Shown here: piece after piece, positions 15,809 through 46,783 of the stretch
Layout of the letters: every line of letters begins with the position of its first letter
Numbering within the stretch: position 1 is the first letter of the stretch
NCBI GenBank assembly: GCA_016840945.1
Contig: JAEORJ010000096.1
Location: 1-61,843 of the forward strand
Direction: 5' to 3'
Length of the DNA: 61,843 nucleotides
DNA from: Candidatus Gerdarchaeota archaeon
Lineage (GTDB): Archaea > Asgardarchaeota > Heimdallarchaeia > JABLTI01
The notes under the pieces: generated by a model
Told to the model about the DNA's origin: nothing
Seen by the model: the letters and a program-made list of their open reading frames with translations, nothing else
Databases searched by the model: none
Translations under genes and position numbers: made by a program

Positions 15809-17698
15809 ATGGTGGAAAGTATGCTACCTATTTTAACAAGTCTTGAATTTTCCAAAATATTACCTTTAAGTGAGAAATCTACTGAAAACATAACATTTCA
15901 TAAAGGAATCAATAAATTTCTCGCGGAAAATGGTTCTGGGAAAACAACCTTAACTGACTTAATTGAACACTCTTTGGTTAGAGATGCACACGCTTTTGCT
16001 TGGAATGTTTTCTCCAAAAAAAGAGCTGATCGAACAGCTTATGTTAAATCTGAATGGACTTTTGGTAATGAAGCAAATTCTATAATTCATGAATTTACAG
16101 ATGCAGGAGCTCGAACGAGAGTAACTTCATCGAAATTCTCAAACAAAGCTTTGACAAGAGATATGTATTCAGATTTTCTTTATTCACGAACAAATCTTTC
16201 TTTAGAACAAACTCAAAAATTGTTTGAAGGTGTATATTATAAACGTGAGAATGATTTAAACCTATTAGGAACACCTGGTGAAGAAAATCTTATGGAATTT
16301 TTTGAATTGTTAAATAAAGCAATACGTATGGAAACACCAGCCACTATAAAACTTCGAAATGAAATTGGTGAAACAAAACGCCAGATTGAAATGCGTAAAA
16401 ATAATAAAAGGAAAATTGAAACTCAAATAGAAAAGATGGAAATCATTTTTGCTAGTGCAGAAACATCAGCGCAAGCTCTTGATTCAATTGGTGATAGAAA
16501 AGGCGCATTGGTGAGAGATAATAATAATTTGAAAGATGAAATTGATAAAATCTGGAAAGCACTTCAAGCAGTAGAAGATGATGATGAGAATATGATTAGT
16601 GAATTAGATACTAATCAAAATTCTCTAATGAATATTAGAAGTAAACAAGACCAATTGAAATCACAAAGATATGTTTTGCAGTCTAATATTGAACGATTGC
16701 AAAATGAATTAGAAGGATATTCAAAATTAGGTGTTGTTAATTATCAAGAGATTAAAAGTAATTGGTCGAAAAAACAAAGCTGCGAGCTTTGTGGTTCAAC
16801 TATATTCAATCAATGGGATGAGAGGATAGCCATTGGTTGCCCTGTTTGTGGTACTGATTGGAAAAAGATACCAAAAGAAGTTCAAAACTCAATTAATAAT
16901 CATAAAATAAAAAACGATCCAGCTAGGGACATTCAAAACGAAATTGATAAATTAACACATGAATTAAGAGGAATTGAGGAAGATCTCATAAAAAATGAAA
17001 ATGAAGAAGATGAATTAGCAAATACAAACAAAAATCTTAGAGAAAAATTATCTTCAAATAATGTTCGAAGAAGAGAATTACAAAGAAAGAATGAAGAGTT
17101 TAATCAAAAAATCCAAAGAATTGGTGTAGAATTAGGTAGCCTAACGGCTCAAGAAAAAATGGTTAATCAAGATGAGAGTATTGGATTGTTAAAAGTAAAT
17201 TTAGAGAAGATAAATTCTGAATTAGAAAAATATCAATTACAATTAGAACGTTTGGAAAAAGAACTACCAGAACAGAAAGAACTTCAACAGATATTGAATA
17301 ATTTTACACGCACCACTAAAGAGATATTTGGCTATAGTATTTTGGCTGATACTGACACAAGAATTATCACCATAACAAAAGATGATTCAAATAGGGATTT
17401 TGCAGCAATGTCATGGTCAGAAAGATATTTCATAGATGTTGTATTCAGAATTGCTATTTTCCATTATTTAATTGAGAATAACATAATGACTAGGGGACTA
17501 TTAATTCTAGATTCACCTGAGGCCGCTCTTGACCCCTTTAGGTTAGAATTACTAGCTAACCTGATTAATAGAAATAAGGATAAAATAGATTTCATTATTG
17601 CTACCCGAGTCAATAAATTCTATGATATATTAGATGGGAAAGCATTAGACATACGAAAACAAACACAAACAAGTTTGTTTGATTTTATATCCACATAA
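15809..17698 (+). CDS. Rad50/SMC-like coiled-coil ATPase with four-cysteine zinc hook
   Basis: This 629-aa ABC-type ATPase has the Rad50 arrangement. Walker A AENGSGKTT is at 39-47, where the usual first Gly is Ala. A long coiled coil covers about 180-320 and another about 365-500. The signature-like segment MSWSERYFIDVVFRIAI precedes Walker B LLILDSPEAALDP. The loop between the coils holds two CxxC pairs, Cys325/328 and Cys344/347. Rad50 has one CxxC per protomer and dimerises to bind zinc; here one chain could bind zinc alone. Mre11 is not in the window. It is followed closely by the aminotransferase gene. It probably acts on DNA, but the target is unknown. Confidence 0.75.
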   Translation: MVESMLPILTSLEFSKILPLSEKSTENITFHKGINKFLAENGSGKTTLTDLIEHSLVRDAHAFAWNVFSKKRADRTAYVKSEWTFGNEANSIIHEFTDAGARTRVTSSKFSNKALTRDMYSDFLYSRTNLSLEQTQKLFEGVYYKRENDLNLLGTPGEENLMEFFELLNKAIRMETPATIKLRNEIGETKRQIEMRKNNKRKIETQIEKMEIIFASAETSAQALDSIGDRKGALVRDNNNLKDEIDKIWKALQAVEDDDENMISELDTNQNSLMNIRSKQDQLKSQRYVLQSNIERLQNELEGYSKLGVVNYQEIKSNWSKKQSCELCGSTIFNQWDERIAIGCPVCGTDWKKIPKEVQNSINNHKIKNDPARDIQNEIDKLTHELRGIEEDLIKNENEEDELANTNKNLREKLSSNNVRRRELQRKNEEFNQKIQRIGVELGSLTAQEKMVNQDESIGLLKVNLEKINSELEKYQLQLERLEKELPEQKELQQILNNFTRTTKEIFGYSILADTDTRIITITKDDSNRDFAAMSWSERYFIDVVFRIAIFHYLIENNIMTRGLLILDSPEAALDPFRLELLANLINRNKDKIDFIIATRVNKFYDILDGKALDIRKQTQTSLFDFIST

Positions 17699-17723
17699 TT
17701 GAAAGAGAAGGATGATTAATAAC

Positions 17724-19073
17724 ATGTCAGATTGGCTAAAAGAAGAAATTGAGAAATATAAAACACAACATCAAAAATCACTTTTGCTTTGGAAGGAAGC
17801 TCAAACACTAATTCCAGCTGGTGTTTCTCACAATATCAGAGATTTTCATATGACACCTTTTGGATTATCACCACCATTTATCAAAAAAGCAGCAAAAACA
17901 TTGCTTTTTGATATTGATGAAAATACCTACCTAGATTATTGGTTAACTCATGGTGCAGCAATTTTAGCTCATGCACCGGATGCTGTAATGAAAGCTATTG
18001 CTAACCAATTACCTTTGGGCAATCATTTTGGTATGGTTAATGAACAAACATTATTATTAGCAAAAAAAATAATTGATGCAACACCAAGTATTGAAAAATT
18101 ACGATTTTGCACAACTGGAACAGAAGCTACTATGTATGTCTCAAGATTAGCTAGAGCATATACTAAGAAAAACAAAATTGCTAAAGTTCAAGGTGGCTGG
18201 CATGGTGGTAATGATACCTTATTCTATTATGTAAAAGATGTAAAAGAGGGAATTGAATCTAAGGGATTAAAATCATTAAAGGATGCTGATATCTTAAGTT
18301 TTGATTATAATGACATCGATGGATTCCGAAGAATAATCCAGGAAAATAAAGATGATTTAGCTGCTGTTATCATGGAACCAGTACTAGGAGCAGGCGGAGC
18401 TATACCTCCTCGAGAAGGATTCCTAGAAACAATTCGAGAAGAAACTGAGAAAAATGGCATTCTACTTATTTTTGATGAGATTATAACAGGATTTAGATTG
18501 AGTTATCATTCTGGGCAAGGTTATTTCAATGTAATACCAGATTTAACTACTTTAGGCAAAATTGTTGGAGGAGGAGCGCCTATAGGTGTTATTGGTGGTA
18601 GAGATGACATTCTAGAACAAGCTAATCTACAAAAAGGTGGAGAAGTTTGGATTGGCGGTGGAACCTTTTCTAGTAATCCTGTAAGTATGGTAGCGGGTAA
18701 AGCTACCTTAGATATTTTGGATAAAAATAAGGATAAGTATTATTCAAAATTAGACTCTGATGGTAAGAAAATTCGCGATAATATTGAAGTTTTATTACAA
18801 GAACTTAATGCACCTGGAATAGTTACCGGAGTTGGTTCAATGATCTGTATTCACTGGTTTAAGGAAAAAAACATACGATCAGAAAGTAGCGCTTTTCTTA
18901 AACTAAATGTTGATAAAGATAAAATTGCTCAATTCCAACTATTAATGTTGAACAGAGGAATATTGATACGTAGTGGATTTGGCTATTTATCAGTGGAACA
19001 CACTGAAAAAGATTATAATAAAACCCTTGAAGCTATGGAAGAATCAATAAAAATAATGATTCAAAAGAATTAA
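17724..19073 (+). CDS. Class III aminotransferase, glutamate-1-semialdehyde 2,1-aminomutase-like
   Basis: This PLP enzyme has an N-terminal IPAGVSHNIRDF motif, the PLP-phosphate region TTGTEATMYVSRLARAYT, VQGGWHGG, the Asp-bearing FDEIITGFRLS and the Schiff-base Lys (about 279) in TTLGKIVGGGAPIGV. Overall it is most like HemL, which makes 5-aminolevulinate. No other tetrapyrrole gene is nearby, so a different amino substrate is possible. ATG 17724 is preferred because GGATGAT at 17710-17716 is seven bases upstream; another ATG at 17712 lies inside that site. Confidence 0.8.
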   Translation: MSDWLKEEIEKYKTQHQKSLLLWKEAQTLIPAGVSHNIRDFHMTPFGLSPPFIKKAAKTLLFDIDENTYLDYWLTHGAAILAHAPDAVMKAIANQLPLGNHFGMVNEQTLLLAKKIIDATPSIEKLRFCTTGTEATMYVSRLARAYTKKNKIAKVQGGWHGGNDTLFYYVKDVKEGIESKGLKSLKDADILSFDYNDIDGFRRIIQENKDDLAAVIMEPVLGAGGAIPPREGFLETIREETEKNGILLIFDEIITGFRLSYHSGQGYFNVIPDLTTLGKIVGGGAPIGVIGGRDDILEQANLQKGGEVWIGGGTFSSNPVSMVAGKATLDILDKNKDKYYSKLDSDGKKIRDNIEVLLQELNAPGIVTGVGSMICIHWFKEKNIRSESSAFLKLNVDKDKIAQFQLLMLNRGILIRSGFGYLSVEHTEKDYNKTLEAMEESIKIMIQKN

Positions 19074-19153: not shown

Positions 19154-19756
19154 ATGAAGTGTGAAGAAATGAGCTCCAGTGAAGATATAAAAACCAAGAA
19201 TTTGTTAAAAGGGATAATATCAATTCTTGTTCGTCGTAAGTATAAGGTTGTTAAAGAAGAGCATTTTGAGGATTATATTGATTTAATTTGTGAATTAGAA
19301 GAAGATCCATCAAATGAAATGTATGCTAGAATTTCATTAGAAGATAAAGTAGGCGTCTCAGTACTTCGTGATTATTTCAAAAAACTTGAAGAAAGAAAGC
19401 AAGAAAAAGGAGAAGATAATGTAAAAGGCCTTCTAGTAGCTTCTAATAGATTTACTCATTATGCTCGAAGAGAAGCTAAAGAAAACAACATCTGGATTAT
19501 AACAAGTAAAGACCCTCGTTTTGATATTTTCACTCATAATTTAGTCCCAGAACATTTAATTTGCCCAGAAGATGAATTGAAAGTACTTTTGGATAAATAT
19601 AATATAAAACGACGTCATTTACCCAAGATCCTTGCAAGTGATCCTGCTGTTAAAGCAATCGGCGCTAAACCAGGTCAAGTAGTGAAAATCCTCCGTGATA
19701 GTGATGTCTCTGGTGAATCTACTGCTTATAGATTAGTTGTGAGACGAGCAGGCTAA
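19154..19756 (+). CDS. rpoH: RNA polymerase subunit Rpb5/RpoH with eukaryote-like N-terminal domain
   Basis: This subunit sits in the jaw of RNA polymerase. Residues 129-200 are a textbook archaeal RpoH/Rpb5 C-terminal assembly domain: HNLVPEH, LPKILASDPAVKAIGAKPGQ and YRLVVR. Ordinary archaeal RpoH is only about 80 residues long. This one has about 125 further residues that resemble the eukaryotic Rpb5 jaw domain in order: an N-terminal helix (LLKGIISILVRRKYKVV), DPSNEMYARISLEDKVGVSVLRD, then KGLLVASNRFTHYARREA and IWIITSKDPRFDI. The total length of 200 aa matches eukaryotic Rpb5 (about 210). It is not followed by rpoB, as it usually is in archaea. A hairpin terminator follows. Confidence 0.88.
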   Translation: MKCEEMSSSEDIKTKNLLKGIISILVRRKYKVVKEEHFEDYIDLICELEEDPSNEMYARISLEDKVGVSVLRDYFKKLEERKQEKGEDNVKGLLVASNRFTHYARREAKENNIWIITSKDPRFDIFTHNLVPEHLICPEDELKVLLDKYNIKRRHLPKILASDPAVKAIGAKPGQVVKILRDSDVSGESTAYRLVVRRAG

Positions 19757-20196: not shown

Positions 20197-20296
20197 TTGA
20201 ATCAAATGATATTTTTTCTTAATGCACAGACCAAAAGCTTTTGATATAATTATTTGTTTAAATTAAACAAATCTGGTTCATTTGTGGGAAATTAAC

Positions 20297-21205
20297 ATGG
20301 CTACACCGTTTACTTTTCAAAGTGAGAATACTGTTAAATTATCAAAAGATGCTTTAGATGAACTCCTAGAACCAATTCCTGAAGATGTTCTTGTAGAAAA
20401 AATTGGTTTACTTAATGATTGGAAAACGAAGCGGGTCCCATTAGGTAAAAAGGAATCAAAAAGTGAATATCTAATTAAAAACTATGGCCCATTATTAACA
20501 CTAAAAGTTTTACGTGAACTTAGAATTATCCGAGAACATGCAACCATCGAGAATCATTATTGGAATATCTTTTATTGGGATAAAAGTATTAGCAGATATT
20601 ACCCCGATAAAATAAAGAAAAAATTCGAAGATATTATTGTAACTCATGATACAATGATAAATGTTGATTTATTAAATGTAAATGAGGAGAAACAGACACT
20701 CTTTTTACTACTTGAACAATGGCAGGATGATATTGTAGCAGATACATTTCTTTCTCAAGTAAAAACTCAATTACCAAAATACTTCAGAGTTTACTTATCG
20801 ATAGCAGAAAAAATGTTACTAGTACAAGAAAAATCTGAAAAAGCTACTGCTAATTTCATTAAAATATTTGAAGAAGCATTTGGTGTTGTAACCTCAAAAA
20901 TAACAATTAATGCAATGGCTATTCAAGAATTTGTTAAGAAATACCCTAATGAACTTACAAGATTGGTAATCAAGGTCCCACAAGAAGTTGCAGGTTTTGG
21001 TGGATTAACTGAATTAACATTGATTGGCAGCGATGTCATTAAAGGATCCAAAGGATTAATGGATAGACATGAAACATCACCTATTCTGATTGGACCTTGG
21101 ACTGGTGTTTCAAATAAAAACCTCAATATTGATATCAATAAACCAATTAAAACAAATTCTATTGAAGCAACCATCGATTTATTTAAACTTATTAAGGATT
21201 TATGA
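20297..21205 (+). CDS. Hypothetical protein, 302 aa, soluble
   Basis: I do not recognise this protein. ATG 20297 (MATPFTFQSENTVKL) is preferred; an in-frame TTG lies at 20282. Residues 1-120 are mixed helical with many charges, 120-200 are helical, and 200-302 look alpha/beta (VTSKITINAMAIQEFV, FGGLTELTLIGSDVIKG). There is no signal peptide, membrane helix or enzyme motif. The next gene, 171 bases downstream, encodes the proline-rich coiled-coil protein; a functional link is possible but unsupported. Confidence 0.6.
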   Translation: MATPFTFQSENTVKLSKDALDELLEPIPEDVLVEKIGLLNDWKTKRVPLGKKESKSEYLIKNYGPLLTLKVLRELRIIREHATIENHYWNIFYWDKSISRYYPDKIKKKFEDIIVTHDTMINVDLLNVNEEKQTLFLLLEQWQDDIVADTFLSQVKTQLPKYFRVYLSIAEKMLLVQEKSEKATANFIKIFEEAFGVVTSKITINAMAIQEFVKKYPNELTRLVIKVPQEVAGFGGLTELTLIGSDVIKGSKGLMDRHETSPILIGPWTGVSNKNLNIDINKPIKTNSIEATIDLFKLIKDL

Positions 21206-42224: not shown

Positions 42225-43421
42225 TTAAACCCAATCACCAGTTTCAATTTTGGTTGGAAGATATTCTTCAGTGAAGAATTTAATACCTCGACTAGCAAGT
42301 GCTTGAATTTCTGCTTTTTGTCTGGTTTCAATCATCAATCGAAGCTCTTTAACCCATTCAGGACGAACTTTAACGAATTTCTCTTCAAGCATCATTCTAG
42401 CACGAGAAATGTCCATCTTAGACATTGGCAGACGAGTATTCTGTGGGAGATTATATTTATCTAAATCTGAAGGACGAACGCCTAGCCATTTAATATTAGG
42501 AGTAGCTAATTCATAAGACTCATAAGACAAGGCTTTACTACCCAAACCATAGACCCTTAGTATGTCCAAACCATATGGATCTGAATCCATGATTGCAAAG
42601 ATTGGTAGATCTAATTCTTGACTCATCCTTCTTAAGAAAATCCTTGTAGCTACGTTTGGTTGTCCACTACCAGTCATAATTACACATGGATATCTTTCAT
42701 AGAATTTATCTTCTGCTAATCTTAGAAAAGCTGCTTGTTTCTCCACTACTAAAATGAACTCTGCATCTGATTGCAAATCGGTAATATGGTCTTGCATTGG
42801 ATTAATGTTCTTACCACTTGATCCTTGTTTTGTACAATCTATTAAATCACCATTATCAAGATAACTTATTCTGCCAACTACTAACCCTCTATCATTAGCA
42901 GTCACATGAATATTCTTTCGGTAGGTGCCTAACATTACAGCACTATCTTCTATTAATGGATCGCTTCCTCTATTTTGATCTTCGAATAGAGCAACATCTG
43001 TATAGAAGACTTCTCTTTTACTACCATGAATGTTTAAATCTAACAATTCATAGATGATCTGTAATACTCTTAATTGTGCAGTAAATCTCTTAATAGCACT
43101 GATATCATCCCATTTTCTATCAGTGAAATTTTCACCCAACAATAATAGATCTGATTCTTCATCGTAAATAACATTACTAGCACTTCTAGAGGGTACTTTT
43201 AATATTGGTGTTCCCGAATTGATGGTGTCAACAAACACCCTTTTGAATATCTCCTCTATTCTTCTCATACCTTCGTCTCGAGATATTTCACTTATCTGGT
43301 GAATGCCATCAGGTAAATCCTCTATTTTATGTCGTCTCATACCTTTGATTACTTCACGTTCATGTAGAACATGTTTTAATATTGTTCGGGAAACTTCTTT
43401 GGGATATTTTTTGCTTGACAT
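42225..43421 (-). CDS. top6A: DNA topoisomerase VI subunit A (Spo11-like)
   Basis: This is the DNA-cleaving subunit of the type IIB topoisomerase. The catalytic Tyr140 is in SKREVFYTD of the winged-helix domain. The Toprim domain has Glu227 in LVVEKQAAF and the DxD pair Asp279/Asp281 in AIMDSDPYGLDI. Further motifs are GSGQPNVATRIFLRR and WLGVRPSDL. The length of 398 aa is normal. It is 17 bases downstream of top6B, with GAGGA before the ATG, so the two are cotranscribed and made together. Confidence 0.97.
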   Translation of the reverse strand: MSSKKYPKEVSRTILKHVLHEREVIKGMRRHKIEDLPDGIHQISEISRDEGMRRIEEIFKRVFVDTINSGTPILKVPSRSASNVIYDEESDLLLLGENFTDRKWDDISAIKRFTAQLRVLQIIYELLDLNIHGSKREVFYTDVALFEDQNRGSDPLIEDSAVMLGTYRKNIHVTANDRGLVVGRISYLDNGDLIDCTKQGSSGKNINPMQDHITDLQSDAEFILVVEKQAAFLRLAEDKFYERYPCVIMTGSGQPNVATRIFLRRMSQELDLPIFAIMDSDPYGLDILRVYGLGSKALSYESYELATPNIKWLGVRPSDLDKYNLPQNTRLPMSKMDISRARMMLEEKFVKVRPEWVKELRLMIETRQKAEIQALASRGIKFFTEEYLPTKIETGDWV

Positions 43422-43438: not shown

Positions 43439-46400
43439 TTATTTCCCAGCCAATTCAGCTGCTGTTTTAAATGAGCGCATGATATGCTTTCGTATTGTTT
43501 TAATTGTTTTCACACCCAAACCTTTCACTGATGATGTTAAAGCTATTTTTGCATTTTGGAATTGCTTTATAGTATATATTCCCACGCTATTTAGCTCTTC
43601 TTTTATTGCAGGGGTAATGTGTGGTAAAACCTCCACTGACAAGTTTTTACGTAATTCAATTATCTTATCTTCAGATATGCCACGTACTTCAGATAGTTTT
43701 CCAATATCCTTCTTGAAAAGATCACCTGCTGTTTTTACACCTAGTTTAGCGAAATTTTCTTCCGTTGTCTTCCCTAAGCCAGGTATTTTCCTAATAGCTA
43801 AATCAGCTTCTATGTAATCTTTTGGAGGAGTAGTTTTCGATGGTTTCTTTGTCTCCTCTGTAGTGTCTTTTTCCTTTGTTTCCTTTGTTCCAAGAAATTC
43901 AGCTATTGTTTGGTCTCGTTTCTTTGGTGCTTTTTCTTTTGGTTTCACTTCTTCTTTAGGAGGTTCAGGTTTTTCTGCTGGTTTAGCTTTTGGTTTTGTA
44001 GTTGTCTTTGGTTTTTTAGTTGATACTACACTAGAACCAGGTGTCATCAACAATTTTTCTTCTATTTCAACTTTTAATTTAGTAATAGTTGGTAAACGTA
44101 ATCCTCTGATATTTGTTAATTGATTGTCATCCGCATCTAAGAATTCTTTTACAGTGAAAATACCCATTAAATTGAGATCTCGTTTTCCTTCAAAAGAAAT
44201 TCTTGGTAAAACCATAACATCGGTATTACCTCTATTTTGAGCTATAGTCTTTTCACCTAATCCTTTGATTTTCAACAATCTGCTATTAGCTACCATATAG
44301 AATTTATGGACAGTTTCAATTCCCTTTTGTTCTAATCTTTCAGCCATTACTTTCCCTACACCTTCAAGTTTGCTAACAGAAGCATCTGCTTCTAAAAAGC
44401 CAGGTGGTGGTGTGGGGCCTTTTTCTTTCATATGCTTAGCTATTTTTATTTCTTCACTTTCAACTGTTTCCTCAGCTACCTCTTCGCCTTCTGATTTGCG
44501 AAATTCCTCTATATCTAGATCAAGATTTTTGCGAATATGTTCAAATAAAGAGACTATTCTTTCTTGTGATAATCCAAATATTTTTAGTAATTTTTCGGGA
44601 TTGGAATCAAGGAAATCTAATACACTATAGATTTTCATGTTATGCAATTCTGAGACTGTTTTTGCAGTAATATTTGGAAGTACATCAACATTACATTTAG
44701 ATTTTAACTCAACAATATCATTAATTGTCAAATTACTGTTTGTCAATAATGCATTATCAGTGTTGAAGAAGTCTTTAACATTTTTAACTCCTTGAGCTCT
44801 TAAAGATCGTTCTGTTGCAGGACCTACACCAGGTAATCTTGATAAGTTATCCAAAGCACCATATAATTCAATTCCATCAATTATACCTCGTTCTTTAGCA
44901 AATTCATCTAACGCAACAGCACTAGTAGATTCTACTAATTCGTCTTTAGCTATTTCAGGTAACTCTAATATTGCTCGTAAAATTTGTTCGGATTGATCCA
45001 AGGCATCTTCAGATAATCCTAAGGAAAATAATTCTTGCAATTGATCTTCATTTAAGAGAATAAGATCTTGAAGTGTTTGAATATCATAACGTTCAAGATT
45101 AACACCTTCTATTGAATCCATTGGTAGTGCTTCTACCGGTATAGGATTCTTTGGGAGAAAAACTGATCCTTCACGATTCTTCAAACAATTGCTAAATTGA
45201 GTGGAGCTAAATAAGAATTGAAACTCGTCCTCATCCATCTTGCCCAATATTTGCCCAACAATGGAAGTGGCAATGGGAGCATATTTTTCGAAGATACGCA
45301 TTCTTTTTGCTTGTTGCTCTCTCTTCTTCAAAGCTCGCTGGAATCTCATTAATTTTCTTCCAGCTTTTTGTAAACATAATCTTAGTTCTTTTCTAATTTC
45401 ATCTACTTCAGCAATATACTCTTTGCTAGTTTCTGGGAAGGGTATTTTTGTACTTACTAATGATATAGCAAAAATCAATGGGTCATTATTGAGATTAGTT
45501 TTGTAATTAGACCAATTTATACTTTCGATGGTCTTTTTAATCAAATCATTTCCTTCACCAAAAAGTAATGGTATCCTATTAGCAAAGCGAGCTAATTTAT
45601 AAGGTGGTGAATTCCCCACGCCACCATAACCTATAGCTACTTCAACTTGAAAAGCATGACCACTGTAACTAGAAGGAGGTCTTGTTTCAGAGCAAGTAAA
45701 TTCCGGTTTATAAACCATCTTCATACCTGCTTCAAGATTGTTATGACCTAAAGGAGAAAGGCATTTACCATCTGGTGGGAAGAATTTAACTTTAACAAAA
45801 CCTTCATGAATTAAACGACGTAATTCCATTTCATCTAATTTTTTAGGATCTTTAGTCTTGGAGACATTTGAAATTGTTAGAACTTCATCTGCTGTTTTAT
45901 CACCGATTCTTTGGAAATGAGTTTTAAGGAAATCACGCATAGTTTTTGATTCAGTTCGAGAGATTTCACTTTTCAATTGATTGATGTCGGTACCTATAGG
46001 ATGAAGTGGAACTTCAATAGGTGGTTCAGGAATATCGTCAACTGTTCGCTTATGAATAATTGGTTCATCAGGATTATCAGGGGTAATTATGTGGAAAGTA
46101 GCATAAGGTGTAATTACAGCCATTTCATCGAAATATTCGTAAACATATCTTTTTGATCTGCTCCAAGTTCCTGCAAAACAAACAGAAACTTCTGTTCCAT
46201 GGCCTTTTAATTGATTTTTTGAGCTACCAGTATACTTTTTGGTATCAACAATTTCTGGAGCGTTTTTTACTATATCAATAAATAATTTATAGTGACTTGT
46301 AAAATCAGCAGATTTCTTTTTTGAAAGTGCTAATCGAGATTTGATTTCAAATGGCACTCTAATAGTGGATTGTGAATAAATTAATACCATTTTCGCTCCT

Positions 46401-46783
46401 AAACCAAAACGACCTCGAGATTGACGTTCGCCATAATTAGAACCAGTTAATACTCTACCAAATAATTTTGGAATATCATCATGGCGTATACCAATACCAT
46501 TATCACGCACTGATAATCTTATAAATTCGCTAGTAGCTTCTTCATCAAATTTGTAATTTTTTATACCCATTAAGTCGCCTACTTCTTCAGGAGACATCAA
46601 TTCAATACGAATTTCAATCTCTGGTAAAAAACCACCTTTTTCAGCTGCATCTAAAGCATTTTCTACTAATTCACGTACACTTGTATAAGTAGATCTTGTT
46701 GGATTATCAAAGCCCGCAATAGCTTTGTTTGCTTCAAAGAATTCAGCAGCAGACCGTTCTATTATTTTCTCACGCGCAATCAT
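43439..46783 (-). CDS. top6B: DNA topoisomerase VI subunit B with very long C-terminal helix-hairpin-helix array
   Basis: This is the ATPase subunit of topoisomerase VI. The GHKL domain shows SVRELVENALDAAE, SVRDNGIGI and RGRFGLGAKMVLIYSQ. The H2TH and transducer domains follow, to about residue 480. Usual archaeal subunits are 500-660 aa; this one is 1114. The extension holds three units of roughly 100-120 residues, each with one HhH (LPGVGPATERSL near 650, LEGVGKVMAERL near 805, IPGLGKTTEENF near 1000) and a second half starting VLPxIT/S and containing IYSVLDF, IFTVKEF or IYTIKQF. Lys/Pro-rich linkers (about 900-985) separate the later units. Extra DNA binding is inferred. Confidence 0.95.
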   Translation of the reverse strand: MIAREKIIERSAAEFFEANKAIAGFDNPTRSTYTSVRELVENALDAAEKGGFLPEIEIRIELMSPEEVGDLMGIKNYKFDEEATSEFIRLSVRDNGIGIRHDDIPKLFGRVLTGSNYGERQSRGRFGLGAKMVLIYSQSTIRVPFEIKSRLALSKKKSADFTSHYKLFIDIVKNAPEIVDTKKYTGSSKNQLKGHGTEVSVCFAGTWSRSKRYVYEYFDEMAVITPYATFHIITPDNPDEPIIHKRTVDDIPEPPIEVPLHPIGTDINQLKSEISRTESKTMRDFLKTHFQRIGDKTADEVLTISNVSKTKDPKKLDEMELRRLIHEGFVKVKFFPPDGKCLSPLGHNNLEAGMKMVYKPEFTCSETRPPSSYSGHAFQVEVAIGYGGVGNSPPYKLARFANRIPLLFGEGNDLIKKTIESINWSNYKTNLNNDPLIFAISLVSTKIPFPETSKEYIAEVDEIRKELRLCLQKAGRKLMRFQRALKKREQQAKRMRIFEKYAPIATSIVGQILGKMDEDEFQFLFSSTQFSNCLKNREGSVFLPKNPIPVEALPMDSIEGVNLERYDIQTLQDLILLNEDQLQELFSLGLSEDALDQSEQILRAILELPEIAKDELVESTSAVALDEFAKERGIIDGIELYGALDNLSRLPGVGPATERSLRAQGVKNVKDFFNTDNALLTNSNLTINDIVELKSKCNVDVLPNITAKTVSELHNMKIYSVLDFLDSNPEKLLKIFGLSQERIVSLFEHIRKNLDLDIEEFRKSEGEEVAEETVESEEIKIAKHMKEKGPTPPPGFLEADASVSKLEGVGKVMAERLEQKGIETVHKFYMVANSRLLKIKGLGEKTIAQNRGNTDVMVLPRISFEGKRDLNLMGIFTVKEFLDADDNQLTNIRGLRLPTITKLKVEIEEKLLMTPGSSVVSTKKPKTTTKPKAKPAEKPEPPKEEVKPKEKAPKKRDQTIAEFLGTKETKEKDTTEETKKPSKTTPPKDYIEADLAIRKIPGLGKTTEENFAKLGVKTAGDLFKKDIGKLSEVRGISEDKIIELRKNLSVEVLPHITPAIKEELNSVGIYTIKQFQNAKIALTSSVKGLGVKTIKTIRKHIMRSFKTAAELAGK

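Follow-up and report, generated by a model that had tools for sequence, protein, structure and literature searches.

The DNA analyzed here, called the window, is the 61,843-nucleotide contig JAEORJ010000096.1 of a Candidatus Gerdarchaeota archaeon, and one of its genes encodes a real, conserved, jaw-bearing form of the archaeal RNA polymerase subunit Rpo5 (RpoH). One gene carries two domains in the order of eukaryotic Rpb5, the N-terminal one with a sequence link to Rpb5 and wide conservation among archaea. We consider it very probable that this domain is a genuine Rpb5-type jaw on the cell's own RpoH/Rpo5 subunit, working in the polymerase as proposed below. It is most likely the archaeal counterpart of the eukaryotic jaw and its probable forerunner, common descent being our inference. 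An earlier note, made from the letters alone, had proposed a full-length, eukaryote-like Rpb5 architecture, which profile searches, profile-profile comparison, and a predicted structure bear out. The gene and its parts are as follows.

19154..19756, + strand: gene for the jaw-bearing RpoH/Rpo5, with 200 codons and a stop; translation likely begins at 19169 (Met6)
19154..19516, + strand: N-terminal jaw domain (residues 1-121) with an Mrr/PD-(D/E)XK-type nuclease fold that lacks the catalytic [DEQ]xK; it resembles the eukaryotic Rpb5 jaw in sequence and fold
19454..19465, + strand: T101-H102-Y103-A104, aligned with the TPSA site through which eukaryotic Rpb5 touches downstream DNA
19520..19738, + strand: C-terminal assembly domain PF01191, residues 123-195

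The frame is a single open reading frame of 200 amino acids with no internal stops. Most homologs start at the equivalent of Met6, so translation probably begins at 19169 and yields a protein of 195 residues. The gene was compared with those of eight named relatives, all metagenome-assembled genomes (seven bear the title Candidatus Heimdallarchaeota, the eighth Asgard group archaeon), to which it is 73-80% identical; a ninth locus from the same search is from Micrarchaeota. In a codon comparison with the eight, substitutions in the N-terminal part stood at 0.43-0.55 for third positions and 0.09-0.14 for second positions, and the C-terminal part gave a similar pattern with third-position changes predominating. 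The large excess of third- over second-position change in the N-terminal part indicates that the extension is translated and under selection as protein.

The C-terminal domain matches PF01191, the Rpb5 C-domain, with an E-value of 8.2e-27 (93.2 bits against a cut-off of 23.5), and the NCBIfam RpoH model NF007129 was also passed (101 bits against 83). The earlier note had put this domain at residues 129-200; the PF01191 match covers 123-195. Searched as a single sequence with phmmer, residues 47-195 align to residues 63-209 of human Rpb5 in one stretch with small gaps, and this alignment contains the DP(S/T)(N/D)xM and KVG(V/I) segments named in the earlier note.

To examine the N-domain by itself, we cut the C-domain from 34 Asgard sequences and ran a profile of the N-domains that remained (A4) against all Protein Data Bank (PDB) sequences. 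Human Rpb5 was the top match (E 1.4e-9), with yeast Rpb5 at 1.2e-4; Rpb5 filled the first 11 of the 25 rows returned to E 10, two plant Rpb5 chains stood further down, at 0.033 and 0.11, and among rows unrelated to Rpb5 the lowest E-value was 0.013. Neither Mrr nor NucS was named in any of the 25 rows. The N-domain of human Rpb5 scored 42.9 bits with the Asgard model, whereas a model built from 10 Mrr-type sequences gave it 6.3. The Mrr-type set makes a limited control, being small and including members that themselves lack catalytic residues. Scores from hhalign were 51.9 for the archaeal-eukaryotic pair, 61.2 for archaeal-Mrr, and 27.8 for Mrr-eukaryotic, which together with the bit scores places the archaeal domain between Mrr and the eukaryotic jaw. 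It had been anticipated that the extension might prove restriction endonuclease-like with no specific tie to Rpb5; the fold is indeed nuclease-like, but the sequence link of the Asgard profile is to Rpb5. The Rpb5 jaw itself is described as having a nuclease-like fold in the portions consulted of PMC551604 and PMC1185551.

A joint alignment was made of 34 Asgard N-domains, 14 from a large metagenomic set of jaw-bearing RpoH proteins (the P0070 group), 4 eukaryotic jaws, and 11 Mrr-type domains. At the aligned place, the catalytic [DEQ]xK occurs in 4 of the 11 Mrr-type domains, in none of the 48 RpoH N-domains (0/34 Asgard, 0/14 P0070 group), and in none of the 4 eukaryotic ones. An R-x-[YF] motif is present in every Asgard (34/34), P0070-group (14/14), and eukaryotic (4/4) domain and in 0/11 of the Mrr type, where the arginine alone is found in 2/11. 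The threonine of the TPSA site is likewise invariant (34/34, 14/14, and 4/4) and occurs in 4/11 Mrr-type domains. The proline that follows it is more variable (Asgard 18/34, P0070 group 0/14, eukaryotes 4/4, Mrr-type 0/11), and the alanine of the site is kept in 43 of the 48 archaeal N-domains. The window protein reads THYA here (T101-A104), retaining T and A with P replaced by H. Asgard genomes also hold stand-alone Mrr-type proteins of 116-133 amino acids (L078, L081, L088, L091, L096, and L097); all six are without [DEQ]xK in the alignment and are possible kin of the source of the jaw.

Several results complicate a simple reading of the domain as a jaw of Rpb5 type. Pfam's model of the eukaryotic jaw, Rpb5_N (PF03871), gave no match on the window protein at E ≤ 1, so our claim is of a homologous jaw and not of a PF03871 member; on the same protein PF22722 came just above its cut-off, with NucS_C and Mrr_cat below theirs. 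Searched singly against Pfam, all 34 Asgard N-domains matched Mrr_cat (best 2.1e-12), 33 matched NA-iREase1, 6 NucS_C, and 7 Rpb5_N (best 1.4e-5). The predicted structure contains the jaw fold and the Rpb5 domain order, but by fold alone NucS fits the isolated N-domain slightly better than Rpb5 does, and the Mrr-like structure 1y88 matches it about as well as Rpb5 or better. The Mrr-type protein L078 and yeast Rpb5 obtained the same score, 27.1 bits, with the Asgard model, and a P0070-group model gave L078 21.6 and human Rpb5 20.6. Finally, trees leave the eukaryotes unplaced. Because of the L078 scores, we lowered our confidence in a genuine jaw slightly, to the level stated at the outset, and gave a little more weight to a convergent origin, in which RpoH and Rpb5 each captured an inactive Mrr/NucS-like domain and the archaeal version would be jaw-like without being an ancestor. 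The fold matches, the Mrr_cat matches, and the occurrence of stand-alone Mrr-type proteins in the same genomes all speak for such parallel capture. We nevertheless judge it unlikely: the domain order and the join into the C-domain are identical in the two, human Rpb5 favors the Asgard model over the Mrr-type model by 36 bits, the PDB rows of the N-domain profile are free of Mrr and NucS names, and R-x-[YF], the threonine, and the loss of catalytic residues are common to archaeal and eukaryotic domains.

In Rpo5/Rpb5 it is the C-domain that anchors the protein to the largest subunit of the polymerase. By analogy with RNA polymerase II (Pol II), the C-domain of the jaw-bearing protein would seat it on Rpo1, and the N-domain, an Mrr-type nuclease fold that lacks its catalytic residues, would form part of the lower jaw and close the DNA cleft on its lower downstream side. 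The loop in which the threonine is invariant (eukaryotic TPSA, THYA in the window protein) may hold the incoming downstream duplex, and the free face of the jaw could be open to factors, as in the Pol II complex. According to the passages available to us of PMC6690254, the TPSA site contacts downstream DNA in human and yeast Pol II, in yeast at the minor groove, and the yeast P118T substitution caused no growth defect. According to PMC3906176, a chimera of a yeast jaw and a Pyrococcus C-domain required a single change in that C-domain.

Each of the eight relatives' metagenome-assembled genomes has a single PF01191 match, the extended gene itself, and rpoB was found in seven of them. The extended protein is therefore taken as the cell's RpoH, and the suggestion that it might be a second Rpb5-like copy finds no support in these genomes. 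The same count bears on whether the protein belongs to the polymerase at all. A DNA-binding or defense protein that reuses an RpoH domain would agree with a gene unlinked from rpoB and with the weak match to PF22722, a NACHT-associated inactive nuclease; since the relatives' genomes have no other PF01191 match, their polymerase would then lack Rpo5, and we give this idea almost no credence.

Separation from rpoB is a second property of the jaw-bearing genes. The neighbors in the window are these.

15809..17698, + strand: SMC/AAA-like ATPase, conserved upstream neighbor; Pfam matches below cut-off
17712..19073, + strand: class-III aminotransferase, conserved upstream neighbor
20282..21205, + strand: conserved downstream neighbor, not rpoB; no Pfam match at E ≤ 1

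This gene order is that of the eight relatives, as far as each locus reaches. The missing rpoB neighbor, already remarked on from the sequence, was confirmed by tblastn with six archaeal RpoB proteins, which found no rpoB in the whole window, and rpoB is absent from the rpoH loci of all eight relatives. Among 26 fetched loci without a jaw match, rpoB begins at most 203 bases downstream on the same strand in 25 (20 Asgard, 5 from other genomes). The sole exception, G164, encodes a 212-residue protein (L115:982-1620) that is not an ordinary short RpoH; for its N-terminal part of about 120 residues there was no match to the jaw profile or to Pfam at E ≤ 0.1. By comparison, none of 59 jaw-bearing Asgard loci has rpoB within 1.5 kb downstream (56 have at least 300 bases there), and it adjoins rpoH in none of 30 jaw-bearing loci of a second, Thermoproteota-like phylum, making 0/89. 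Seven jaw-bearing genomes have rpoH and the RpoB domain on a single contig, at distances ranging from 18 kb to 1.9 Mb. With 25 of 26 jaw-less loci linked and 0 of 89 jaw-bearing loci linked, the missing neighbor is the rule within this sample. The pattern is most simply explained if the fusion arose at a new site and the operon copy was lost; trees gave no direction for the change in jaw and operon arrangement. If our reading holds, the coupling of jaw presence to lost rpoB linkage is a possible marker for archaeal phylogeny. One genome (G166) has two short rpoH genes, L129 and L130, each with its own rpoB, reflecting two polymerases or a mixed bin.

In the Asgard phylum, to which the relatives belong, PF01191 was found in 205 of 227 genomes and the N-domain profile, at E ≤ 0.001, in 126 of 225, three of them weakly (5.5e-6 to 3.2e-5). 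Among 147 genomes of this phylum with listed C-domain places, the N-domain lies in frame immediately before the C-domain in 85 and does not in 62, and none has both arrangements. Three of the 62 need qualification: G160 does carry an N-domain, outside the N-domain survey matches listed, G071 has its N- and C-parts on different contigs, and G164 has the unassigned N-terminal part described above. For the phylum that includes G367, RpoH matches came from 378 of 398 genomes. Of the matches listed, 56 (from 55 genomes) span both domains, beginning no later than profile position 10 and lying in frames of 180-209 amino acids. The match in G558 falls in two pieces of a 232-residue frame, and G408 gave a partial match in addition to its first; the other matches listed start at profile position 75 or later, in frames of 76-152 amino acids. 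We place the P0070 group in this phylum: when its 14 proteins were compared with 30 loci from there, identity to the best match was 53-91%. G367 has Rpo8, which the sections seen of PMC13257274 limit to Thermoproteota and Asgard, and we therefore call its phylum Thermoproteota-like. The phylum of the Micrarchaeota genome has RpoH matches in 111 of 116 genomes, with short forms only (frames of 76-156 amino acids) throughout the matches listed. In a separate scan, those genomes from outside the Asgard phylum whose match places were listed gave the C-domain only. The architecture is thus wide in two archaeal phyla and is an established archaeal form. The earlier note's "transitional form" survives in a weaker sense and not as a rare intermediate. 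Its caution that the domain might prove common in many archaeal phyla is borne out for two of the three surveyed; the notion of a rare link falls, and homology stands.

As to origin, we lean toward a history in which an inactivated Mrr-type nuclease was fused to archaeal RpoH before eukaryotes arose, as the gene left rpoB, and was then inherited by eukaryotes, with some Asgard lineages multiplying the jaws (up to three per subunit) or duplicating the gene. In the best tree the eukaryotes stand beside Heimdall-like rows, the four forming one long branch with no archaeal row nested in it. Their position there would also suit transfer of Rpb5 from (proto-)eukaryotes into Heimdall-like archaea with later spread, and others have argued that proto-eukaryotes and Heimdallarchaeia exchanged genes (PMC12395588, in the part consulted). 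Transfer is highly improbable, given that the form spans the Asgard phylum and a second phylum, that archaeal sequences are nearer Mrr than eukaryotic ones are, and that the eukaryotic branch is free of archaeal rows.

Variants of the jaw-bearing subunit were seen in passing. Proteins of 372-498 amino acids (L116, L117, L119, and L120 from G045, G043, G046, and G044; also L118 and L121) have two or three successive N-domain copies followed by one C-domain, the first copy being weak where there are three. Five others (L122-L126, from G017, G020, G019, G022, and G033) carry a long Lys/Pro/Thr/Ala-rich C-terminal tail that by eye recalls histone H1 tails. Tandem pairs of jaw-bearing rpoH genes about 650 bp apart occur in five Asgard-phylum genomes (L047, L049, L052, L054, and L092), and in the Heimdall-type RpoH proteins P0043, P0044, P0053, and P0055 the jaw is interrupted by some 45 inserted residues. 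Elsewhere in the window, 43439-46783 (−) encodes an 1114-residue protein with a long C-terminal extension, adjoining 42225-43421; by eye we take the former to resemble topoisomerase VI subunit B, the latter presumably being subunit A.

If our interpretation is correct, the origin of a domain common to the eukaryotic nuclear polymerases (I, II, and III) predates eukaryotes and is not a eukaryotic invention, and the jaw becomes an archaeal feature testable in recombinant archaeal polymerases. A subunit usually described as a short peg would bear, in the window's archaeon and many related archaea, a jaw previously thought to be eukaryote-only. Gene-start annotation may explain how it was missed. 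Two public records of 86 amino acids are, after their first residue, identical to residues 111-195 of 195-residue predictions from contigs of matching listed length (P0063/P0029 and P0064/P0034), and 145-residue records such as P0049 start at the place of Met56; starts near residue 110 or 56 strip all or half of the jaw. In the portions seen, PMC2675907 calls the jaw eukaryote-specific, with archaeal Rpo5 lacking the first ~130 residues, PMC3906176 and PMC6690254 likewise describe archaeal RpoH without it, and PMC13257274 models Asgard Rpo5 in complexes with no mention of a jaw in those passages. Judged by title and opening abstract, no report of an archaeal Rpb5 jaw appeared among the best matches listed from the open-licence literature.

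The window protein agrees with eukaryotic Rpb5/RPABC1 (PF03871 plus PF01191) in its two domains, their order, and the way they are joined, and both have a nuclease-like jaw fold devoid of catalytic residues and conserved R, VG, T, and A positions. It differs in that the archaeal jaw is about 20 residues shorter, without the eukaryotic insertion after the first strand, is nearer Mrr_cat than Rpb5_N in Pfam, and has THYA in place of TPSA. Mrr_cat, NucS (EndoMS), and NA-iREase1 (PF22722) share the fold and superfamily-level sequence similarity, whereas the RpoH N-domains are without [DEQ]xK in 48 of 48 cases and are fused to RpoH. Canonical archaeal RpoH/Rpo5 has about 80 amino acids and is encoded directly before rpoB. 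The window protein shares its C-domain, at 54-56% identity to the Thermococcus and Pyrococcus chains, but has the additional N-domain, and the jaw-bearing genes stand apart from rpoB.
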